Assembly (NCBI GenBank): GCA_947491315.1
Contig: CANLII010000013.1
Coordinates: 1-59,606 of the forward strand
Direction: 5' to 3'
Source: Ignavibacteria bacterium
GTDB taxonomy: Bacteria > Bacteroidota > Ignavibacteria > Kapaibacteriales > UBA961
DNA length: 59,606 nucleotides
This document shows positions 45,359-55,324 of the stretch, in pieces. A model generated the notes under the pieces. The model was not told where the DNA came from. It saw only the letters and a list, made by a program, of their open reading frames with translations, and did not search any database. The stretch's first letter is position 1. Every line of letters begins with the position of its first letter. The position numbers and the translations under genes were made by a program.

Positions 45359-45949
45359 ATGGAAAAAAGAGCATATAGGAATACTCATGACAAGGTTATA
45401 GCCGGTGTTTGCACCGGTCTTGGTGAGTATTTCTCAATTGATCCATTATTCATCAGAATCGTCTTTCTATTATGTTTCTTTGAACCCCCGATTGCCGTCT
45501 TAGGGTATATTGGATTGTGGATAGCCCTTCCCAAGAAGCCTCTGGAGATGCCCATGATTGGCAATCAAGAATCAAGCGATACTTCTTCAAAGACATTTGA
45601 GCAGAGAGCTGAGGAGTTCGGAAGAGAAGCTGAAATCATCGGTGAAAAGTTTGGAAAGGAAGCCGAACAATTCGGTGAAGAATTAGGTAGAAAAGTTGAG
45701 GCAGCGGCTGAGAATCTTGAAGGAAAAATGAAAAATGCATTTGATGATAACAAAGTCACATTCAATCTTACCATAGATTCAAAGCCTAGAAAAGGAAAAG
45801 CACTTGGCTTCATACTCATTGCTCTGGGCGTGATATTCTTGGCTCATAATTATCTCCCTGAGTTTGATTTTGAACGATTCTGGCCGACAATTTTGATTGC
45901 AATTGGATTTTCAATATTGTTTTCAGGCAATAAGGAGAATAAGTCATGA
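45359..45949 (+). CDS. PspC-domain membrane protein with amphipathic linker
   Basis: A 196-residue membrane protein. The N-terminal PspC domain (about 1-60; RNTHDKVIAGVCTGLGEYFS, IDPLFIRIVFLLCF, YIGLWIALP) is followed by a charged helical stretch with repeated F-G-x-E-A-E units (EEFGREAEIIGEKFGKEAEQ), about 77-125. Two C-terminal helices of the LiaI/LiaF (DUF5668) type follow: LGFILIALGVIFLAHNYLPE and FWPTILIAIGFSILF. PspC proteins respond to envelope stress. The next gene starts inside its stop codon (ATGA). Confidence 0.88.
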   Translation: MEKRAYRNTHDKVIAGVCTGLGEYFSIDPLFIRIVFLLCFFEPPIAVLGYIGLWIALPKKPLEMPMIGNQESSDTSSKTFEQRAEEFGREAEIIGEKFGKEAEQFGEELGRKVEAAAENLEGKMKNAFDDNKVTFNLTIDSKPRKGKALGFILIALGVIFLAHNYLPEFDFERFWPTILIAIGFSILFSGNKENKS

Positions 45950-47004
45950 ATCAATTTAGATTTCTTTTTGGATTCTTTTTTATCTCTATCGGTTCATTAC
46001 TTCTTGCTCATAATTTTTATCCATTCTTTGAGTTTGAATCTGTTTGGCGTCTTTGGCCATTAATTCTGCTTTTGCTTGGAGTTTCAACGCTCATCAAACT
46101 AGAAACTGTCAAGAGATTTATCATGTCAGGAATAGGTGTAATTTCAGGCATCATACTATTTGCCGGGATTCATGAAGATAATGATATCGTTAGTATTGAT
46201 GTACATGAAAAATTCTCCGAAGTGAGGGATTCCGTCAGTGTTCCTTTTGATCCAAATCTCAGCGATACTTCATATATTTCCATTTCTGCGGGTGCGGCAT
46301 CAATTGATATCGGAATGAATGAAGATTCTTCTTTGATACTTATTCATAGACATTCTGAAGTATTTGAGAATGATTCCGAGGTAAATGGTGGAAATATTGA
46401 TGAAATTACTACCGAATCATCATTTTCAATAGATCATAAAATTCGTGATGGCATCAATAGAGTGGATCTTGAATTTGGTGGCAATCTCACATTATTTGGC
46501 AATCAGAAGTTAAAGAGAGCAAAAGTATTCCTTCATCCACAAGCATTGTGGAATATAGATATTGATGGTGGAGCAACTTCCATGAATGCTGATCTATCTG
46601 CATTGCGCATTGCTTCTTTGAATCTCGAGGTTGGTGCTTCATCAGTTTCGCTTCGACTAGGCACAATGCAAGATTCTTCATTCTATCATATTGAAGGTGG
46701 TGCTGCTAAATTCCTCATAGAGATTCCTGAAGATGCAGGTTGCAGAATCACTCAAGAATCAGGTTTGTCAAAACATGATTTTCCAAACTTCATCAAGAAA
46801 GCTGATAATGTCTTTGAATCACCCAATTATGCCACATCAAAAAAGAAAATCATATTGGACATTCTAACCGGAATGAGTTCAATCACCGTTCAAATGTATA
46901 AGCAAAAAGCTCCCGAAAAACAAGTAAACAGTATTGATACAAATCGAAAAAAATCACCTGACACGCCCGTAATACAGCCAAATGAGAAGTCAAAACAACT
47001 CTAA
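45946..47004 (+). CDS. LiaF/DUF5668-type membrane protein with beta-helical 'toast-rack' domain
   Basis: A 352-residue protein. Its N-terminal helices (RFLFGFFFISIGSLLLAHNF, WRLWPLILLLLGVSTLI, SGIGVISGIILFAGI) are like those at the end of the PspC protein. The rest is a repetitive beta domain (ISISAGAASIDIGMNEDSSL, NIDIDGGATSMNADLSALRI, LEVGASSVSLRLG), as in LiaF/DUF4097 proteins. A Lys/Pro-rich tail follows. The 4-nt overlap with the PspC gene indicates translational coupling, and the two probably form one envelope-stress unit. A terminator follows at 47011. Confidence 0.85.
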   Translation: MNQFRFLFGFFFISIGSLLLAHNFYPFFEFESVWRLWPLILLLLGVSTLIKLETVKRFIMSGIGVISGIILFAGIHEDNDIVSIDVHEKFSEVRDSVSVPFDPNLSDTSYISISAGAASIDIGMNEDSSLILIHRHSEVFENDSEVNGGNIDEITTESSFSIDHKIRDGINRVDLEFGGNLTLFGNQKLKRAKVFLHPQALWNIDIDGGATSMNADLSALRIASLNLEVGASSVSLRLGTMQDSSFYHIEGGAAKFLIEIPEDAGCRITQESGLSKHDFPNFIKKADNVFESPNYATSKKKIILDILTGMSSITVQMYKQKAPEKQVNSIDTNRKKSPDTPVIQPNEKSKQL

Positions 47005-48631: not shown

Positions 48632-50650
48632 TCAATTATCAATTCTTGTATCAACAATTACATCCACGGTTCTTGTGTATAGTCTTCCTTCGGGGAAACT
48701 ATCATCATACAATGCGCTATTACCTTTTGCCGATACAGAAGCTCTTTGTTTCACATTCAGTGATTTCGCAGTTGCATCCGCTCTGTCTTGCGCAAGTTTT
48801 TGATTTGCATTTGCATCACCAAGTCTATCGGTATAACCGGTGATATTGATTGTGGAATTCGGTTTCACATACCCTTTGATGAATTCTATGATATCTGCAT
48901 TCGCATTATTGATATTGCTTGATCGAACATCGAACAGTATCAAAGAAAATGTATTGACTTCGCGGTTTTGCACACGATTGATTTTCTTCTTGTGCAATGT
49001 GACTTGTTCAATGGGCAATTCTCCGTTGATTTCTGCAGAATCTTTCAATGAAGTAAAAGCTTTGAATTGAAATGTGATTGATGTGTCATTCATGAGTTTT
49101 TCACTCATTTCACTTCCGATATACCAATCGATGAATGGTGGAATGACTGTATTGCCGGTGAATCTGCGTAATTCTCTTTCGGATTTACCTGCTGTCAATT
49201 GCCATATATCTACCGTATCGACTTCGACTGTGGGTCTGAAGCGTACAATCGGTGGATTCATTGTTCTGATGGTGTCGAGCGTGATGATTGGCGATATGAT
49301 ATATGCATCATCTGCATTGATTTCCACACGACGATTTTCTTGCGCGCCCATCACGGTTTGCGTATTTGCATGTTTGTCGGGAAGATTTCTGTTCTTGAGA
49401 ATGATTCTTGAATCCGGGATAGTCCAGACTTGTTGCAAATATTGTTTTACTGATTCGGCGCGGCGCAGCGATAGTGTTTTATCACCTTTTTCTTTCTGAA
49501 TATCAGCATTGCAACCTGTCAATGTGAGAATCGCATTTGGTTTTTCCAACATCCGTTTTCCAACAATATTGAGGATATGCAAATATGTTTCTACATGATT
49601 TGGGGTATGAATGAAATCAATGTCAAAGAGCGGTGTATCCGAATGTTCAAGTGTGGCATAACGCTCCGGAATCGTATGCTCACCTTCCTCAAAAAACACG
49701 GCATTCAAAAGAGGCGTCATTAAGAGTGATGAATATTCTTCAATTGTGATATTCACAATATTCTCTTCCTTTGATTGCGCATTCACACTGAATGCAGAGA
49801 GAGATGCTTTGAATCTCTTTGGCTGATAGGGTTTTTCCTCCTCTATAACAGGAAGCGGAGTTATCGGAATTTCGAGAAGAGTTTCGGGAGTGATTGCAGT
49901 GTATGCAATCATGATTCCTGCACGGAGCACATGCAAGGATAGTGATTCTGATGAAGGATCAAAGAGTATTGGATCATTGAGGAAATGGGTATAGGACAAT
50001 TCGGGTCTTAGGAATATGGATTCACTCAGATGAAAATCATGAAATATACCAATCATAGGACCATAGATCATGGATTCAGGAGTGAATGTACCATTACGAC
50101 TATTGCGTATCGTACTTTTCGTGTCTGAGAATATCACTCCTTTTGGAGAGATCAATTCTTCTTCTCCAAAACTTTCCGATTCTTGTTGCATGCGTAATTC
50201 AAAGCCGGCTTTCATTCCAAAACCTGATTGGAATGGTCTCCATGACATTGCCGGTGTGATTCCAACTGAAGGTAAAGTAAATGATATGCGATGTTCGGAT
50301 TGTGCTTCAACGATTTCAAAACCGGTTCCATTGAAGGATAATGCATTTCCGATGGTATTGATTGCAGAGTATGCACCTCTTGCTTTCACATAATCCAAAG
50401 AAAGTCCGATTGTGAAATTCTTATTCAAGGCATGTTCGATGGAGATTCCGAAGAATGGATCCAATTGATGCGATGTACCACTAAATCCCGAACAACAATT
50501 ATCCATTCCGGGTAATTCTTTGAATTGTCCAGTGAATATGGACTGTTGCATACCACCATATATTCCATAGCTCCAAGGCGATCGAATATATTGTGCATTC
50601 ACTGAAAGTGAAAAGCATGTCAATAGCGCAAGATATATGGCTTTACTCAT
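48632..50650 (-). CDS. Outer membrane barrel protein with two OmpA-like domains
   Basis: A 672-residue envelope protein. After a signal peptide (AIYLALLTCFSLSVNAQ) comes an N-terminal beta-barrel-like domain (about 20-265; IYGGMQQSIFTGQFK, FFGISIEHALNKNFTIGLSL). Two OmpA-type peptidoglycan-binding domains follow. The first (about 345-470) has TLTGCNADIQKEKGDKTLSL, RRAESVKQYL and ENRRVEI; the usual GHTD Asp region is altered. The second (about 570-672) has NITGYTDRLGDANANQKLAQ and DRADATAKSL. The start at 50650 has AAGG 6 nt upstream. It begins 8 nt after the lectin/PKD gene, so the two should be co-expressed. Confidence 0.85.
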   Translation of the reverse strand: MSKAIYLALLTCFSLSVNAQYIRSPWSYGIYGGMQQSIFTGQFKELPGMDNCCSGFSGTSHQLDPFFGISIEHALNKNFTIGLSLDYVKARGAYSAINTIGNALSFNGTGFEIVEAQSEHRISFTLPSVGITPAMSWRPFQSGFGMKAGFELRMQQESESFGEEELISPKGVIFSDTKSTIRNSRNGTFTPESMIYGPMIGIFHDFHLSESIFLRPELSYTHFLNDPILFDPSSESLSLHVLRAGIMIAYTAITPETLLEIPITPLPVIEEEKPYQPKRFKASLSAFSVNAQSKEENIVNITIEEYSSLLMTPLLNAVFFEEGEHTIPERYATLEHSDTPLFDIDFIHTPNHVETYLHILNIVGKRMLEKPNAILTLTGCNADIQKEKGDKTLSLRRAESVKQYLQQVWTIPDSRIILKNRNLPDKHANTQTVMGAQENRRVEINADDAYIISPIITLDTIRTMNPPIVRFRPTVEVDTVDIWQLTAGKSERELRRFTGNTVIPPFIDWYIGSEMSEKLMNDTSITFQFKAFTSLKDSAEINGELPIEQVTLHKKKINRVQNREVNTFSLILFDVRSSNINNANADIIEFIKGYVKPNSTINITGYTDRLGDANANQKLAQDRADATAKSLNVKQRASVSAKGNSALYDDSFPEGRLYTRTVDVIVDTRIDN

Positions 50651-50658
50651 TTCATACC

Positions 50659-53600
50659 TTATCGAATGATAATGCATTGTTGAGAATCACGACCATATCT
50701 TGATTGCAGTACAATTCTATATATACCGGCAGGCCAATCCCCTGAATAGTCAAAGACTGCATGTTCAGGTATGGAGTCAGCATTATGTTCTTTCCAGATT
50801 TTGTTGTCAACTTCTGCTCCTCGAGCATCAAACATGGTGAGTTGCACTTCTTCGCCGTGAAAGCGAATTGCACTTACGGTGAAATGTCCATCCGCCGGAC
50901 TCGGTTTGATCATTTGCATGAATGGCATACCTGAAAAGTCAAACATACGAATGGAAGAATCGGATAATACGCATAATGAATCTAAAGCAAATGTACCTTT
51001 TGCAGATGCAGAAACGATTCTTGAACATGGCCATGAAATGGAATCAATTATTATTTCGGTTTTTCCCGGATCACCCATAATTGCAGATCCTGTAAGCATG
51101 GTGAGTGTATCACCGGATGTATAAGCATGCGCGGAATCAATTCTGATTCGCAGTGTGCGAATTCTGTCTGATACGCTATTCTCAAGAATTCTTCCATGTG
51201 ATACTTCCGGCGCAGGATCAAAAATCCATGGATCATATTTCACAATGAAATCAATCACTTTTGGCGGACATGCAAGAGAATCAGGATAGCGTTCAATGAT
51301 GACTGGAATCCTTGCTTTTTTCTCCAGAGGATGTGCTTTGATATTGGGTATAGAAAGCAATACAGGAATGGCACCGGCATCATAGACAACAGAAACACCT
51401 CTTGTCACTGAACATCCATTTGCATCAATCGCTTTGAGAATATATTCTCTGCTTCTTGAGGGAGAGCAGATAGTGGTTGACAATGTGCTATCACGCAATT
51501 CCAATGGTTTCAGACCATCCAGATCAGTCCATTCATAGACATAATTAGGTATTCCACCAATGGCTTCACCACCAATGATCACAGAATCACAAGGACACAC
51601 AAATACTTGATCAGGGAAGGATAAATCGGGTCCACTCACTTTTACTATTTGTTGTGTACTCACAGTACAATTTGCGGAATCAGTGATTGTGCATGCAATT
51701 ACAAAGTCTGAATCAAGACCCATAATTGAAAGAACTGACTCAGTTGAGGAAACGGACAAACCATTGATTGTCCAATTAGGAATATATGGCGGAGTTCCAC
51801 CCTCTGGATTAATCATTGCAAGAATTGATCCACCTTTGCACATCAATGAATCTATGGTCAAGTTCATTTCAAGTTTGGGTCGAACAGTAATGACCATATA
51901 TGCAGTGGTTGACATTCCACCGGCATCGGTTACAGTCAAGGAATAGATTGTTGATGTATCCGGAGAGAATCGAGGATCATAAATGGTTGGATCATCTATT
52001 CCGGTTGTTGGTGACCATGCATAAGTGAATGGCGCTTTACCACATGTTGCAATTTCACCGCGCTTGGGTGTTATATCACCAAAACAAAGAGTCGTATCAG
52101 AAGCGGGGCGAGGATTCGGAACTGGTTCTACGCAAACAGAGATCGTATCGGAAATTGAACATCCTTTTGCATCAATAACTCGTACGGTATACAAAGTATT
52201 GATGAGTGGGCTCACCGTACAAAGTGGACTTGCGGTCTGAAGACCAATTGGAATCCATTCATACCTATATGGCGCGGATCCACCATTCACTTCGGCATTG
52301 AGAGTTACGCTGTCGCCACGACAAATGCATGTCCTATTTGTATCGTTTCTTTTTAGAGATAGTGACATTGATTGTTCGGTTTGGAAATTCACGGTATCGG
52401 AACCAATGCAACCAAAAGGAGTTGATACAGTCAAAGTATATGTCATTGAAATGGTGCTATCCGGGAATATCACCATTGGTCTTGGATTATAGGGATCACT
52501 CAAAAATGTACTCGGTGTCCACTCATATCGTAATGAATCTGTGGGATCGGCGATGACAGTAGGAGTGAGATTGAAAGGCGCAATCGGACTACAGATGAAT
52601 TGAGATCTGCCGGCATTAACTTTCGGACAAGGATTGAGTGTATAAAACACGGTATCACTTCGAGACACATTTTGTCCATCGGTTACGGTAAGAATATATC
52701 CATAGCTTGTTTTCACGCTCGGATTTTCATTCACCTTGACCATAATGGGAATCGTATCGAGCGCGCTTAATGCGGATAGTGGAGCATTATTCAATGCTGA
52801 CCAACGATATATGAATGGGATCACACCGCATTTTGCAGAAATTCCAATCATTCCACCTTTTTGATCACACACACATTCCGTGATATCGGGTCCGGCATTT
52901 GCATCCGGAATGAGTCGTACATCGGCAAATACCGTATCTGCATCCACACAACCATTGGAATCGGTGACGCTCAATTCATAATTACCGGCCATCGTGGGAT
53001 AAATCAAGGTTGTTGCTTGATAGGGATTTACAATATTGGCATTTCCCGGAGTCAACCTTTTCCATTCAAAACGATATGGTGGAGTTCCGCCTGATACAAT
53101 TGCATTCTTTCCAAGTTCAATGGTATCTCCAATACAAAATACCTTCACATCATTTCCACCATTCAGAATGGGTTTTGAAGCAATCTGAATTTGATAGATA
53201 TATGACACACTGCAATTCAGTGCATCTTTCACGGTCACTGAGTATTCATGAATACCCGGTTCTGATTTTTTAACTGAAAGAGTTGAACCAAACACTGAGC
53301 CAATCACTCCATCAATTGGAAACCAACGATATGTCAAGGTACCTGCGGAGCTTGTGATGAGTGGATTGATCTTCACGATTTCACCGGCACATGCCTGTAT
53401 GATTGACTGCTTTTGTATGATTGGAAGTGCTCGAACGATACACATTGCGGTGTCGCGGTCTTCACAACCATAAATATCGCGGACATATACTTCAAAACGA
53501 TATGCCCCTGGTTTCATGATTTTCGTTTTGATTGATTCACCATTCATCAAGCCATCGATATGCTGACCATCGAGTGATTTCCATTCATAAGTAAATGCAC

Positions 53601-54642
53601 CTTGAGTGTTTTGTACCTTCGCGAAGAATTCGGCAAAATTTTCCTCACATATCGTGGTATCATTCACTTCTACGATTGCTCGATTTTCGACTGTGATCGT
53701 GGCGTTCAATGTATCGACCAAAATCCCAACTGATCTTTTGATAATGAGTTGTATGGGATAAGTACCGGGAATGGGACTTGAGAATGAGACTATCTTTCCA
53801 TTCTTTGTTTCACCGAGAAGATTCCATGTCCATGAAATCACATTGGCAGAATCTGATGTAAAGCCGATGAGTGAGGCAAGTTGATTCGGGCATAGCGTAC
53901 CTGCCGGCGTGAGACCTTCCACCGTGACTTTGGAATTACTTTTATGTCCGAAGGAGACTATATCATGATTCGCAAATGAACCACCAGTTGATGAGGTGAA
54001 GCCGAGCCATGCCATGCCATTGTCGAGGTCTAGTAGTGAATCAATATTCACATAAGCAGTGATTTTCGGGGTATTGAATTCATCCAGATATACCTTCATG
54101 ATATTATTGACATAGTCAATTCTCATGATATGGACTGTTCCATCTTCCAATTGAGGAATATTTCGTGATGTACCCAATGTGATTGCATGATCGGCACTAT
54201 TCGCATTTTTACCTCGCGTTTGAATGCCGATATGATTATCATTCGGATCGCGGTATTCGGAATTCGGATAGGTATCAAATTCTATCGCTATGCTATTCGG
54301 TATTCCCGCATAACCAATTCCTCCCCCAAAGATCCCAATTGCATCACTCTTCTGATTTTGAATAACAAATGCAATACCATCGGCACCAGAATTACCGGGC
54401 TGAGTTATTTGAAATCCAATTTGAATGGAAAAATCTTGGGCGACATTCCGTTTTTCTTTCAACCAAATGCCACCACCCTGATTGTATGTGGCATCCGTTA
54501 GTCGAATTCTTTTATTGAATAGTTTAGCTTTCCCAACAAAATGAAACATCGATGCATCAGTGAATTCACTGATATACAAATCACCTTGAGCAAATGCTAC
54601 TATGGGTAGTACACAAAAGAAAAGCAGTATTCGAATAATCAT
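50659..54642 (-). CDS. Large secreted L-type lectin/PKD-repeat protein with T9SS sorting domain
   Basis: A 1327-residue cell-surface or secreted protein. Signal peptide IIRILLFFCVLPIVAFA; then an L-type (legume) lectin domain, about 20-235 (GADGIAFVIQNQ, AIEFDTYPNSEYRDPNDNHI, LDNGMAWLGFTSSTGG). About ten PKD/Ig-like domains of about 85 residues follow (about 238-1095), each with a Cys near its start and a Y-x-W strand (SGGTPPYRFEWKRL, GGSAPYRYEWIPI, GKAPFTYAWSPT). Then a cohesin-like beta domain (about 1110-1235; IPVIIERYPDSL, FIVKYDPWIFDP), and finally a type A T9SS C-terminal domain, about 1250-1327 (PSPADGHFTVSAI, VQLTMFDARGAEV, AGIYRIVLQSRYG). It is likely an adhesin for glycans, exported by T9SS. 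Confidence 0.9.
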   Translation of the reverse strand: MIIRILLFFCVLPIVAFAQGDLYISEFTDASMFHFVGKAKLFNKRIRLTDATYNQGGGIWLKEKRNVAQDFSIQIGFQITQPGNSGADGIAFVIQNQKSDAIGIFGGGIGYAGIPNSIAIEFDTYPNSEYRDPNDNHIGIQTRGKNANSADHAITLGTSRNIPQLEDGTVHIMRIDYVNNIMKVYLDEFNTPKITAYVNIDSLLDLDNGMAWLGFTSSTGGSFANHDIVSFGHKSNSKVTVEGLTPAGTLCPNQLASLIGFTSDSANVISWTWNLLGETKNGKIVSFSSPIPGTYPIQLIIKRSVGILVDTLNATITVENRAIVEVNDTTICEENFAEFFAKVQNTQGAFTYEWKSLDGQHIDGLMNGESIKTKIMKPGAYRFEVYVRDIYGCEDRDTAMCIVRALPIIQKQSIIQACAGEIVKINPLITSSAGTLTYRWFPIDGVIGSVFGSTLSVKKSEPGIHEYSVTVKDALNCSVSYIYQIQIASKPILNGGNDVKVFCIGDTIELGKNAIVSGGTPPYRFEWKRLTPGNANIVNPYQATTLIYPTMAGNYELSVTDSNGCVDADTVFADVRLIPDANAGPDITECVCDQKGGMIGISAKCGVIPFIYRWSALNNAPLSALSALDTIPIMVKVNENPSVKTSYGYILTVTDGQNVSRSDTVFYTLNPCPKVNAGRSQFICSPIAPFNLTPTVIADPTDSLRYEWTPSTFLSDPYNPRPMVIFPDSTISMTYTLTVSTPFGCIGSDTVNFQTEQSMSLSLKRNDTNRTCICRGDSVTLNAEVNGGSAPYRYEWIPIGLQTASPLCTVSPLINTLYTVRVIDAKGCSISDTISVCVEPVPNPRPASDTTLCFGDITPKRGEIATCGKAPFTYAWSPTTGIDDPTIYDPRFSPDTSTIYSLTVTDAGGMSTTAYMVITVRPKLEMNLTIDSLMCKGGSILAMINPEGGTPPYIPNWTINGLSVSSTESVLSIMGLDSDFVIACTITDSANCTVSTQQIVKVSGPDLSFPDQVFVCPCDSVIIGGEAIGGIPNYVYEWTDLDGLKPLELRDSTLSTTICSPSRSREYILKAIDANGCSVTRGVSVVYDAGAIPVLLSIPNIKAHPLEKKARIPVIIERYPDSLACPPKVIDFIVKYDPWIFDPAPEVSHGRILENSVSDRIRTLRIRIDSAHAYTSGDTLTMLTGSAIMGDPGKTEIIIDSISWPCSRIVSASAKGTFALDSLCVLSDSSIRMFDFSGMPFMQMIKPSPADGHFTVSAIRFHGEEVQLTMFDARGAEVDNKIWKEHNADSIPEHAVFDYSGDWPAGIYRIVLQSRYGRDSQQCIIIR

Positions 54643-54706
54643 TCCAATCTCTACATATCATAACAATAATTCGGATTCAACATACGAATCAATACCGATT
54701 CCACCT

Positions 54707-55324
54707 CTATTTGAAATCCTTTTCAATAATGGTGATTCTTCCGGGATAGGACATCATCCCAAGGAATGTCTTGATCATTGGTTTTGCATCAAGTTTTACA
54801 GATACAGTGGATTCACCAGGATTTGCCAAAACAAATGCCAATTTTGCCATTCCGGCATACCCTCTTTCCTCGAAGAATGAGAATAGTTCCAATTCGGTGG
54901 AAATTGGAATAGTGATCGTTGATCCGCCAGCCGGTATAGAAATCGGCCCATTCACCACTCCCTCAATCGTTGGAACATCATCAATCAATAATCTCCATTC
55001 CAAAGATTGTAAAGTAGCAATAGAATTATTCGTGACAGCATTATCACTGCCTTCATTCGGATTACGAGCTTCAAGATGTACGGTCAGTGATAGCGGGAGT
55101 GATTTACTGGCCACTTTACTAGCAATCGAAATGGTTTCACCCACAGAGAAATCCGTCATCTTTTTCTTATTCAATACAGATACACCACCTATGTTCACAG
55201 ATGAGATAGACCCAATACGAAATTCCACATTTCGCATAGAACTCAAATCTTTAAGGAATGAACAACCCTGAAACATGCCAAAGGACATCACGAATATCAT
55301 CGTGATGAGATATTGTCTTTTCAT
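54707..55324 (-). CDS. LEA14/WHy-like envelope lipoprotein
   Basis: A 205-residue protein with a lipoprotein-type signal (MIFVMSFGMFQGC). The mature part is a beta-sandwich with the LEA type 2 (WHy) features: SVGETISIASKVASKSLPLS-like region FSVGETISIASKVASKSLPL, LTVHLEARNPN, then SLEWRLLIDDVPTIEGVVNG and PISIPAGGSTITIPIS. Bacterial LEA14-like proteins are poorly understood. It lies 64 nt upstream of the lectin/PKD gene on the same strand and may belong to the same surface operon. Confidence 0.78.
   Translation of the reverse strand: MKRQYLITMIFVMSFGMFQGCSFLKDLSSMRNVEFRIGSISSVNIGGVSVLNKKKMTDFSVGETISIASKVASKSLPLSLTVHLEARNPNEGSDNAVTNNSIATLQSLEWRLLIDDVPTIEGVVNGPISIPAGGSTITIPISTELELFSFFEERGYAGMAKLAFVLANPGESTVSVKLDAKPMIKTFLGMMSYPGRITIIEKDFK

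Follow-up and report, generated by a model that had tools for sequence, protein, structure and literature searches.

A lectin-headed T9SS cargo and a wall-anchored outer-membrane barrel form a candidate adhesin-anchor gene pair in Kapaibacteriales

Two adjacent genes of an Ignavibacteria bacterium from the order Kapaibacteriales form a unit, the first encoding a T9SS cargo with an L-type lectin head and a PKD/SprB-repeat stalk, and the second a barrel fused to two OmpA-like domains. We propose that they encode an adhesin of the cell surface and the dedicated outer-membrane protein that anchors it, that is, a cognate secretion and anchoring pair, and we give this reading a probability of roughly 0.6. 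It is based on the domains observed in the two proteins, pairing across the class, co-occurrence of a cohesin-like cargo domain with the barrel and the matched presence of a cysteine on both partners. The locus is one member of a large multicopy family of gene pairs, not a one-off, and the family is apparently undescribed; the open-access literature that we searched contained no description of it and no work on T9SS, cohesin or OmpA anchors in Kapaibacteria.

The sorting and fixing of T9SS cargo is known in a few Bacteroidia, where PorV/PorU serve type A and PorP/SprF serve type B C-terminal domains (CTDs). We read the present locus as the known kind of arrangement, a T9SS cargo with a cognate outer-membrane barrel, in which the new element is that the barrel is of a different kind and brings a fused wall anchor with it. 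The family suggests that a separate code for pairing cargo with barrel, marked by a recognisable docking domain and a cysteine pair, has evolved in another class of the phylum. Such a code would allow partners to be predicted from sequence, would explain the anchoring of many swappable surface heads and would provide a directly testable mechanism of covalent anchoring.

The window, meaning the whole stretch of 59,606 nucleotides that was analysed, had been the subject of an earlier sequence-only reading, and the three ORFs which that reading joined into one surface system are all present on the minus strand where it had placed them (Table 1). Its 8-nt gap between the cargo and barrel genes is correct if the barrel protein starts at MSKAIYLALL; with an alternative start the longest barrel-OmpA2 ORF would overlap the cargo gene by 19 nt. 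Near relatives of the barrel gene are in Candidatus Kapaibacterium, Ignavibacteria bacterium and Bacteroidota bacterium records.

Table 1. Positions in the window of the two-gene unit, its parts and the neighbouring lipoprotein gene.
Feature	Position	Strand	Basis or remark
Cargo gene, 1327 aa	50659..54642	-	ORF, Pfam, orthologues
L-type lectin head, residues ~19-240	53923..54588	-	Pfam PF18483, PDB 7elv, metal motif
PKD / SprB-repeat / Ig-like stalk, residues ~241-1082	51397..53922	-	Pfam PKD, K319L-like PKD, SprB repeat
Cohesin-like domain ahead of CTD	50929..51363	-	Profile A2, E 1.8e-21; ends in 'ICxEGGxRL' variant
Cys1224 of 'LDSLCVLSDSSIRM', motif cysteine ~20 aa before CTD	50971..50973	-	Cys column 28/34 in A2
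T9SS type A-like CTD, residues 1244-1327	50659..50913	-	Leave-genus-out profile, AF2 beta-sandwich
Barrel-OmpA2 gene, 672 aa	48632..50650	-	Pfam, family alignments A1/A3, ORF 8 nt past cargo stop
Beta-barrel part, residues ~21-262	49865..50590	-	PF13568 in 18/43 family members
Vicinal Cys52-Cys53, loop 1 ('NCCSGF')	50492..50497	-	Family consensus 'PNCCPxF'
OmpA-like domain 1, degenerate	49316..49693	-	PDB 7rjj match, residues 369-445
OmpA-like domain 2	48650..48958	-	PF00691 E 1.6e-17; D608/N616/R623
LEA14-like lipoprotein gene, neighbour only	54707..55324	-	Outside two-gene unit

The cargo begins with a signal peptide, followed by a head that belongs to the L-type (legume) lectins both by its match to the fold family and by its metal-site residues. 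Specifically, Lectin_L-type_dom PF18483 is matched at residues 31-228 (E 1.2e-36; 127 bits against a cut-off of 78.3), Pfam also reports Lectin_legB, and the closest solved structure is PDB 7elv (E 2.1e-19). The legume-lectin metal motif is complete, as E121-x-D123-x-Y125-x-N127-x4-D132-x4-H137 plus D88 of ADGIAF, is retained in all five relatives examined, and consists of residues that we take to be equivalent to the metal residues of concanavalin A; the head is predicted to bind sugar. The stalk includes a SprB repeat above the Pfam cut-off (41.5 bits) and holds about ten repeats, an estimate made from its length, the repeats not being individually delimited. At the C-terminus Por_Secre_tail PF18962 scores 16.1 bits, below its cut-off of 27, and the CTD is absent from the over-cut-off TIGR04183 matches of the genome scan. 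A CTD profile from which the window's genus had been left out matched residues 1244-1327 with E 4e-8, PF18962 exceeds its cut-off in the paralogues L010 and L012, and the AF2 model of the cargo C-terminus (pLDDT 65) has a beta-sandwich at the CTD. The type B CTD model TIGR04131 was not found in the cargo, an NCBIfam scan to E 0.1 giving only NF038112. With known T9SS type A CTD proteins that carry L-type lectin or PKD domains the cargo shares its export signal and its domain vocabulary; for known type A cargo the route is PorV and attachment by PorU/A-LPS, and we know of no dedicated downstream barrel for them.

Immediately before the CTD, paired cargoes share a domain of ~140 aa that closes with GxFxLxxICxEGGxRL. 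The strict motif occurs in 30/49 and 9/16 paired cargoes, and in 3/32 (fetched loci) and 1/48 (this genome) unpaired CTD proteins; Cys1224, its cysteine in the window, is invariant among the cargo orthologues. Pfam Cohesin (PF00963) matches 10/34 members of the domain profile (best E 4.3e-6) and is above the cut-off in the paralogue L010 (25.5 against 24.1), with no match in the window's own cargo. The likeness to the cohesins of cellulosomal scaffoldins (PDB 2vn5/1g1k, E 7e-6) is one of sequence, since a PDB comparison of the AF2 model resolves only the CTD beta-sandwich, and unlike the cellulosomal cohesins this domain has no dockerin partner that we could see, stands ahead of a T9SS CTD and is found together with a barrel. 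We considered whether it is confined to neighbours of barrels and rejected this, as most of the strong unpaired matches that were checked have no barrel nearby; two thirds of cohesin-like/CTD genes do not adjoin one.

The partner protein consists of a signal peptide, a small outer-membrane beta-barrel, a first OmpA-like domain (OmpA1), a linker domain and a second OmpA-like domain (OmpA2). OMP_b-brl_2 (PF13568) matches the window's barrel weakly (18.7 bits against 27), and barrel-only relatives stop at model position ~260-320. From its sequence the barrel would have about 8 strands; an AF2 model of the protein, made from four sequences, has a pLDDT of 34 and is not usable, so that the size and topology of the barrel remain predictions. 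An identity of the barrel as PorP/SprF was considered and is not supported by the tests made, members of the family matching OMP_b-brl_2 or OMP_b-brl instead. Pfam matches OmpA twice (1.6e-17), and the claim that both domains bind peptidoglycan agrees with the sequence of one of them. OmpA2 has the Asp, Asn and Arg expected for meso-DAP, with the D608/N616/R623 spacing equal to that of D576/N584/R591, which bind meso-DAP in PorE, and its D and R are invariant in 43/43 family members. OmpA1, however, retains R397 and has A382 where the DAP-binding Asp is expected.

The LEA14-like gene, which the sequence-only reading had counted as a member of the module, does not belong to it. Its product has a lipobox and a LEA_2 match of E 0.0023, which is below the cut-off, and the gene is single-copy in 50/61 genomes. 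In one relative (G001) it is flanked by the glycosyltransferase and Sua5/S10 genes that flank it in the window, and in another (G004) it is beside Sua5/S10, with the lectin-barrel pair absent in both cases; its place is therefore kept without the pair, and we rejected it as a third component. In most other relatives examined (L181-L194) it adjoins a gene for a ~360-aa probable membrane protein, often with a receiver-domain response regulator nearby, a neighbourhood that is lost in the window's genus. The adhesin-plus-anchor reading is thus supported and strengthened for the lectin cargo and the barrel and does not include LEA14; likewise, the genes not being conserved together, which had been named as grounds against the module, is true of LEA14 only. 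The pairing of cargo and barrel is kept in the genus, and similar pairs recur many times across the order and in further families of the class.

Within the genus, cargo orthologues of 69-92% identity are found in G002, G005 and G006. The cargo and barrel orthologues adjoin each other in G002 and G006, those of G005 are found at the ends of contigs with their orientation unchanged, and the pair is retained in four species. Further away, homologues of the stalk and C-terminus occur in G044, G047, G052 and G014, with a barrel gene next in each, and the head of the two that were scanned (G052 and G044) is IgGFc_binding and not a lectin; this cargo type with a different head is kept beside a barrel in two further families. 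A lectin head of ~64% identity is also found in G001 and G004, where it forms part of a short CTD protein whose gene comes immediately after another barrel paralogue; in G001 the two genes overlap by 4 nt. Heads have therefore been exchanged while the link to the barrel stays. Other cargo heads elsewhere are vWA/WD40, and the genomes G179, G212 and G252 show comparable pairs in further families of the class.

The barrel-OmpA2 family was found in 61/61 genomes sampled from the order, with 4-22 matches per genome. Among 99 sampled barrel loci with an upstream neighbour in view, chosen as good matches to the window protein, 49 are immediately preceded by a co-oriented CTD gene, and a CTD gene lies within 150 bp upstream of 43/99 barrel genes as against 10/561 other genes at the same loci; the junction from cargo to barrel is commonly a -4 overlap. 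Because these loci had been selected by similarity to the window protein, pairing was assessed a second time with a profile of the cohesin-like domain, trained on other genomes only and run on ten left-out test genomes. This gave 132 matches. A barrel gene on the same strand lies 150-900 bp downstream of 44 of them, where 0.2 adjacencies would be expected under uniform placement, and a barrel follows 19/31 of the strongest matches. Viewed from the partner's side in the same ten genomes, a cohesin-like gene precedes 44/102 family members with a barrel, 13/21 that have a barrel without OmpA2 and 0/16 that have OmpA2 without a barrel, and we therefore regard the barrel as the constant partner and OmpA2 as accessory.

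These data bear on whether the barrel-OmpA2 protein could be a general outer-membrane-peptidoglycan tether or porin with genes that are simply often found next to those of surface proteins. Its OmpA-type architecture, its presence in every genome sampled and the many barrel genes that have no adjacent cargo would all agree with such a role. We nevertheless consider it improbable, since the observed adjacencies far exceed the expected number, the linkage is to one particular kind of cargo C-terminus, and copies with the barrel only are linked while those with OmpA2 only are not; the same systematic pairing argues against an unrelated general porin, which the sequence-only reading had named as fatal to its module. 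Moreover, the homologues in other classes of the phylum, where they are single-copy, lack the Cys loop or motif as well as a CTD neighbour. Four of those homologues (L301-L303 and L305, in G174, G333, G087 and G320) lie directly downstream of a gene for a 509-732-aa protein that resembles a Cys-bearing lipoprotein, possibly another dedicated pair.

As for secretion, this genome encodes the T9SS translocon protein SprA (TIGR04189, 885.9 bits summed against a threshold of 200) and has 66 CTDs above the cut-off; no PorP/SprF (TIGR03519) is over the cut-off, the best match being 19.7 bits against 90.55 at a different locus. The barrel could be mainly a cognate T9SS shuttle or exit factor, PorV- or PorP/SprF-like, which pulls the cargo from SprA by recognising its cohesin-like domain and CTD, with OmpA2 just stabilising the barrel and the cargo later released or linked to A-LPS. 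The order of cargo and barrel is indeed that of type B CTD cargo and the PorP/SprF shuttles required for their secretion (PMC12618676), and the place of PorP/SprF itself is not filled by any protein over the cut-off. However, the CTD here is type A-like and type A uses PorV elsewhere (PMC12618676), and a wall-anchoring module would be odd on a freely cycling shuttle. We judge the shuttle role unlikely as the principal one, although it is compatible with that of an anchor, both being combined in SprF.

One of the closest known systems is SprB-SprF of Flavobacterium johnsoniae, in which a large T9SS-secreted SprB-repeat adhesin is likewise followed directly by the gene of its cognate outer-membrane barrel (PMC12618676). 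Type B CTD cargo and PorP/SprF also form many paralogous pairs per genome (PMC12618676), and the SprF barrel bears twin cysteines (PMC12635249). In contrast to SprB-SprF, the CTD here is type A-like and not type B, the barrel matches OMP_b-brl_2 and not PorP/SprF and has OmpA domains fused to it, its cysteines are placed in loop 1 instead of a periplasmic C-tail, and the cargo has a cohesin-like domain. The comparison raises an SprB-like motility module, in which the T9SS/gliding track would drag the lectin adhesin along the cell by way of the barrel. The SprB repeats of the stalk fit this, as does the disulfide linkage of SprF and PorG to the moving GldK track (PMC12635249), but we think it very improbable: cell-wall-tied PorP-PorE complexes have been postulated to carry non-mobile cargoes (PMC9143113), the cysteines here would be in an extracellular loop, and the fusion of a wall anchor to the barrel makes a stationary adhesin likelier than a mobile one.

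A second parallel is PG1035-PorP-PorE of Porphyromonas gingivalis, where a barrel holds the surface cargo and an OmpA-type domain links that barrel to peptidoglycan (PMC9143113, PMC7192894). The differences are that the barrel and the wall-binding domain are one polypeptide in our family, that the cargo is not type B, and that this genome has a separate PorE-like PD40-OmpA2 protein as well. The latter (L016:7301-10057, G000:C6) combines a PD40 propeller with the same double OmpA module and is encoded beside a ~480-aa gene.

For a cognate adhesin and anchor we envisage the following mechanism. The cargo would pass the inner membrane through Sec and then, by means of its CTD, the outer membrane through the T9SS, after which its cohesin-like domain may dock on the small cognate barrel that the following gene encodes. 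The barrel would keep the cargo at the surface and OmpA2 would tie the assembly to peptidoglycan, leaving the lectin head on its PKD/SprB stalk to bind glycans outside. As a more tentative step, the motif Cys of the cargo might attack the disulfide of the loop-1 CC and so create a covalent link.

Several features of the cysteines prompt this last proposal. Across a diverse set of barrels (A3) the first Cys of loop 1 is present in 38/43 and the second in 32/43, and loop lengths point to an extracellular position of the loop. The motif Cys of the cargo sits 12-21 aa ahead of the CTD and hence would be left near the C-terminus after CTD removal; it is the sole Cys of the cohesin-like domain in 13/42 Cys pairs. 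In a first set of cargo-then-barrel pairs, 42 had both cysteines and 6 had neither, and with L136, L140, L167 and eight pairs from G179, G212, G252, G407, G060 and G038 added, the 59 pairs comprise 50 with both, 9 with neither and no discordant case (the L153 pair, with its motif masked, was left unscored). Five genomes of family f8 (G041, G020, G046, G028, G055) hold both Cys and Cys-less pairs, and the pattern therefore follows the pair and not the redox state of the organism. All nine Cys-less pairs fall in one barrel clade (f8), which therefore represents about one co-loss event, with L150, where the barrel precedes the cargo, as a second; for the same reason a Fisher p is invalid, and we rejected the covariation as statistical proof. 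Discordant neighbours in the barrel-then-cargo order, with a CC barrel and a Cys-less cargo, are found at L110, L151, L159 and L164.

There is a precedent for such chemistry in SprF and PorG, whose C-tail twin cysteines form an intramolecular disulfide that is attacked by a thiol of GldK to give covalent links (PMC12635249). That link is periplasmic, whereas the proposed one between cargo and barrel would lie outside. We regard it as possible, with the odds somewhat against it, that the class as a whole uses a form of T9SS anchoring in which a cohesin-like cargo is disulfide-joined outside the cell to the CC loop of its cognate barrel, itself fused to a peptidoglycan anchor. If true, this would be a covalent surface attachment with swappable heads, distinct from both the A-LPS sortase and type B/SprF retention.

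Some minor observations concern related loci. A 1351-aa protein of this genome (L009:2939-6994, G000:C33) has a cargo-like ectodomain, with a vWA-like N-terminus similar to L010, WD40 and Ig-like repeats, fused to OmpA1-OmpA2 with no barrel or CTD, which is consistent with an ectodomain and the OmpA module working together. The paralogous vWA-WD40 cargo (L010:7341-12252, C22) occupies two ORFs, of 397 and 1219 aa, which may reflect a frameshift, an assembly error or two genes. Within the window, positions 45359-47004 encode a PspC-domain protein and then a LiaF-like membrane protein, a small envelope-stress-like pair. Finally, at L139, L154, L165, L166 and L170 (family f8) the cargo is followed by two barrels in tandem, whose loops are Cys-free and whose cargo has the motif ISYAGGxRL.
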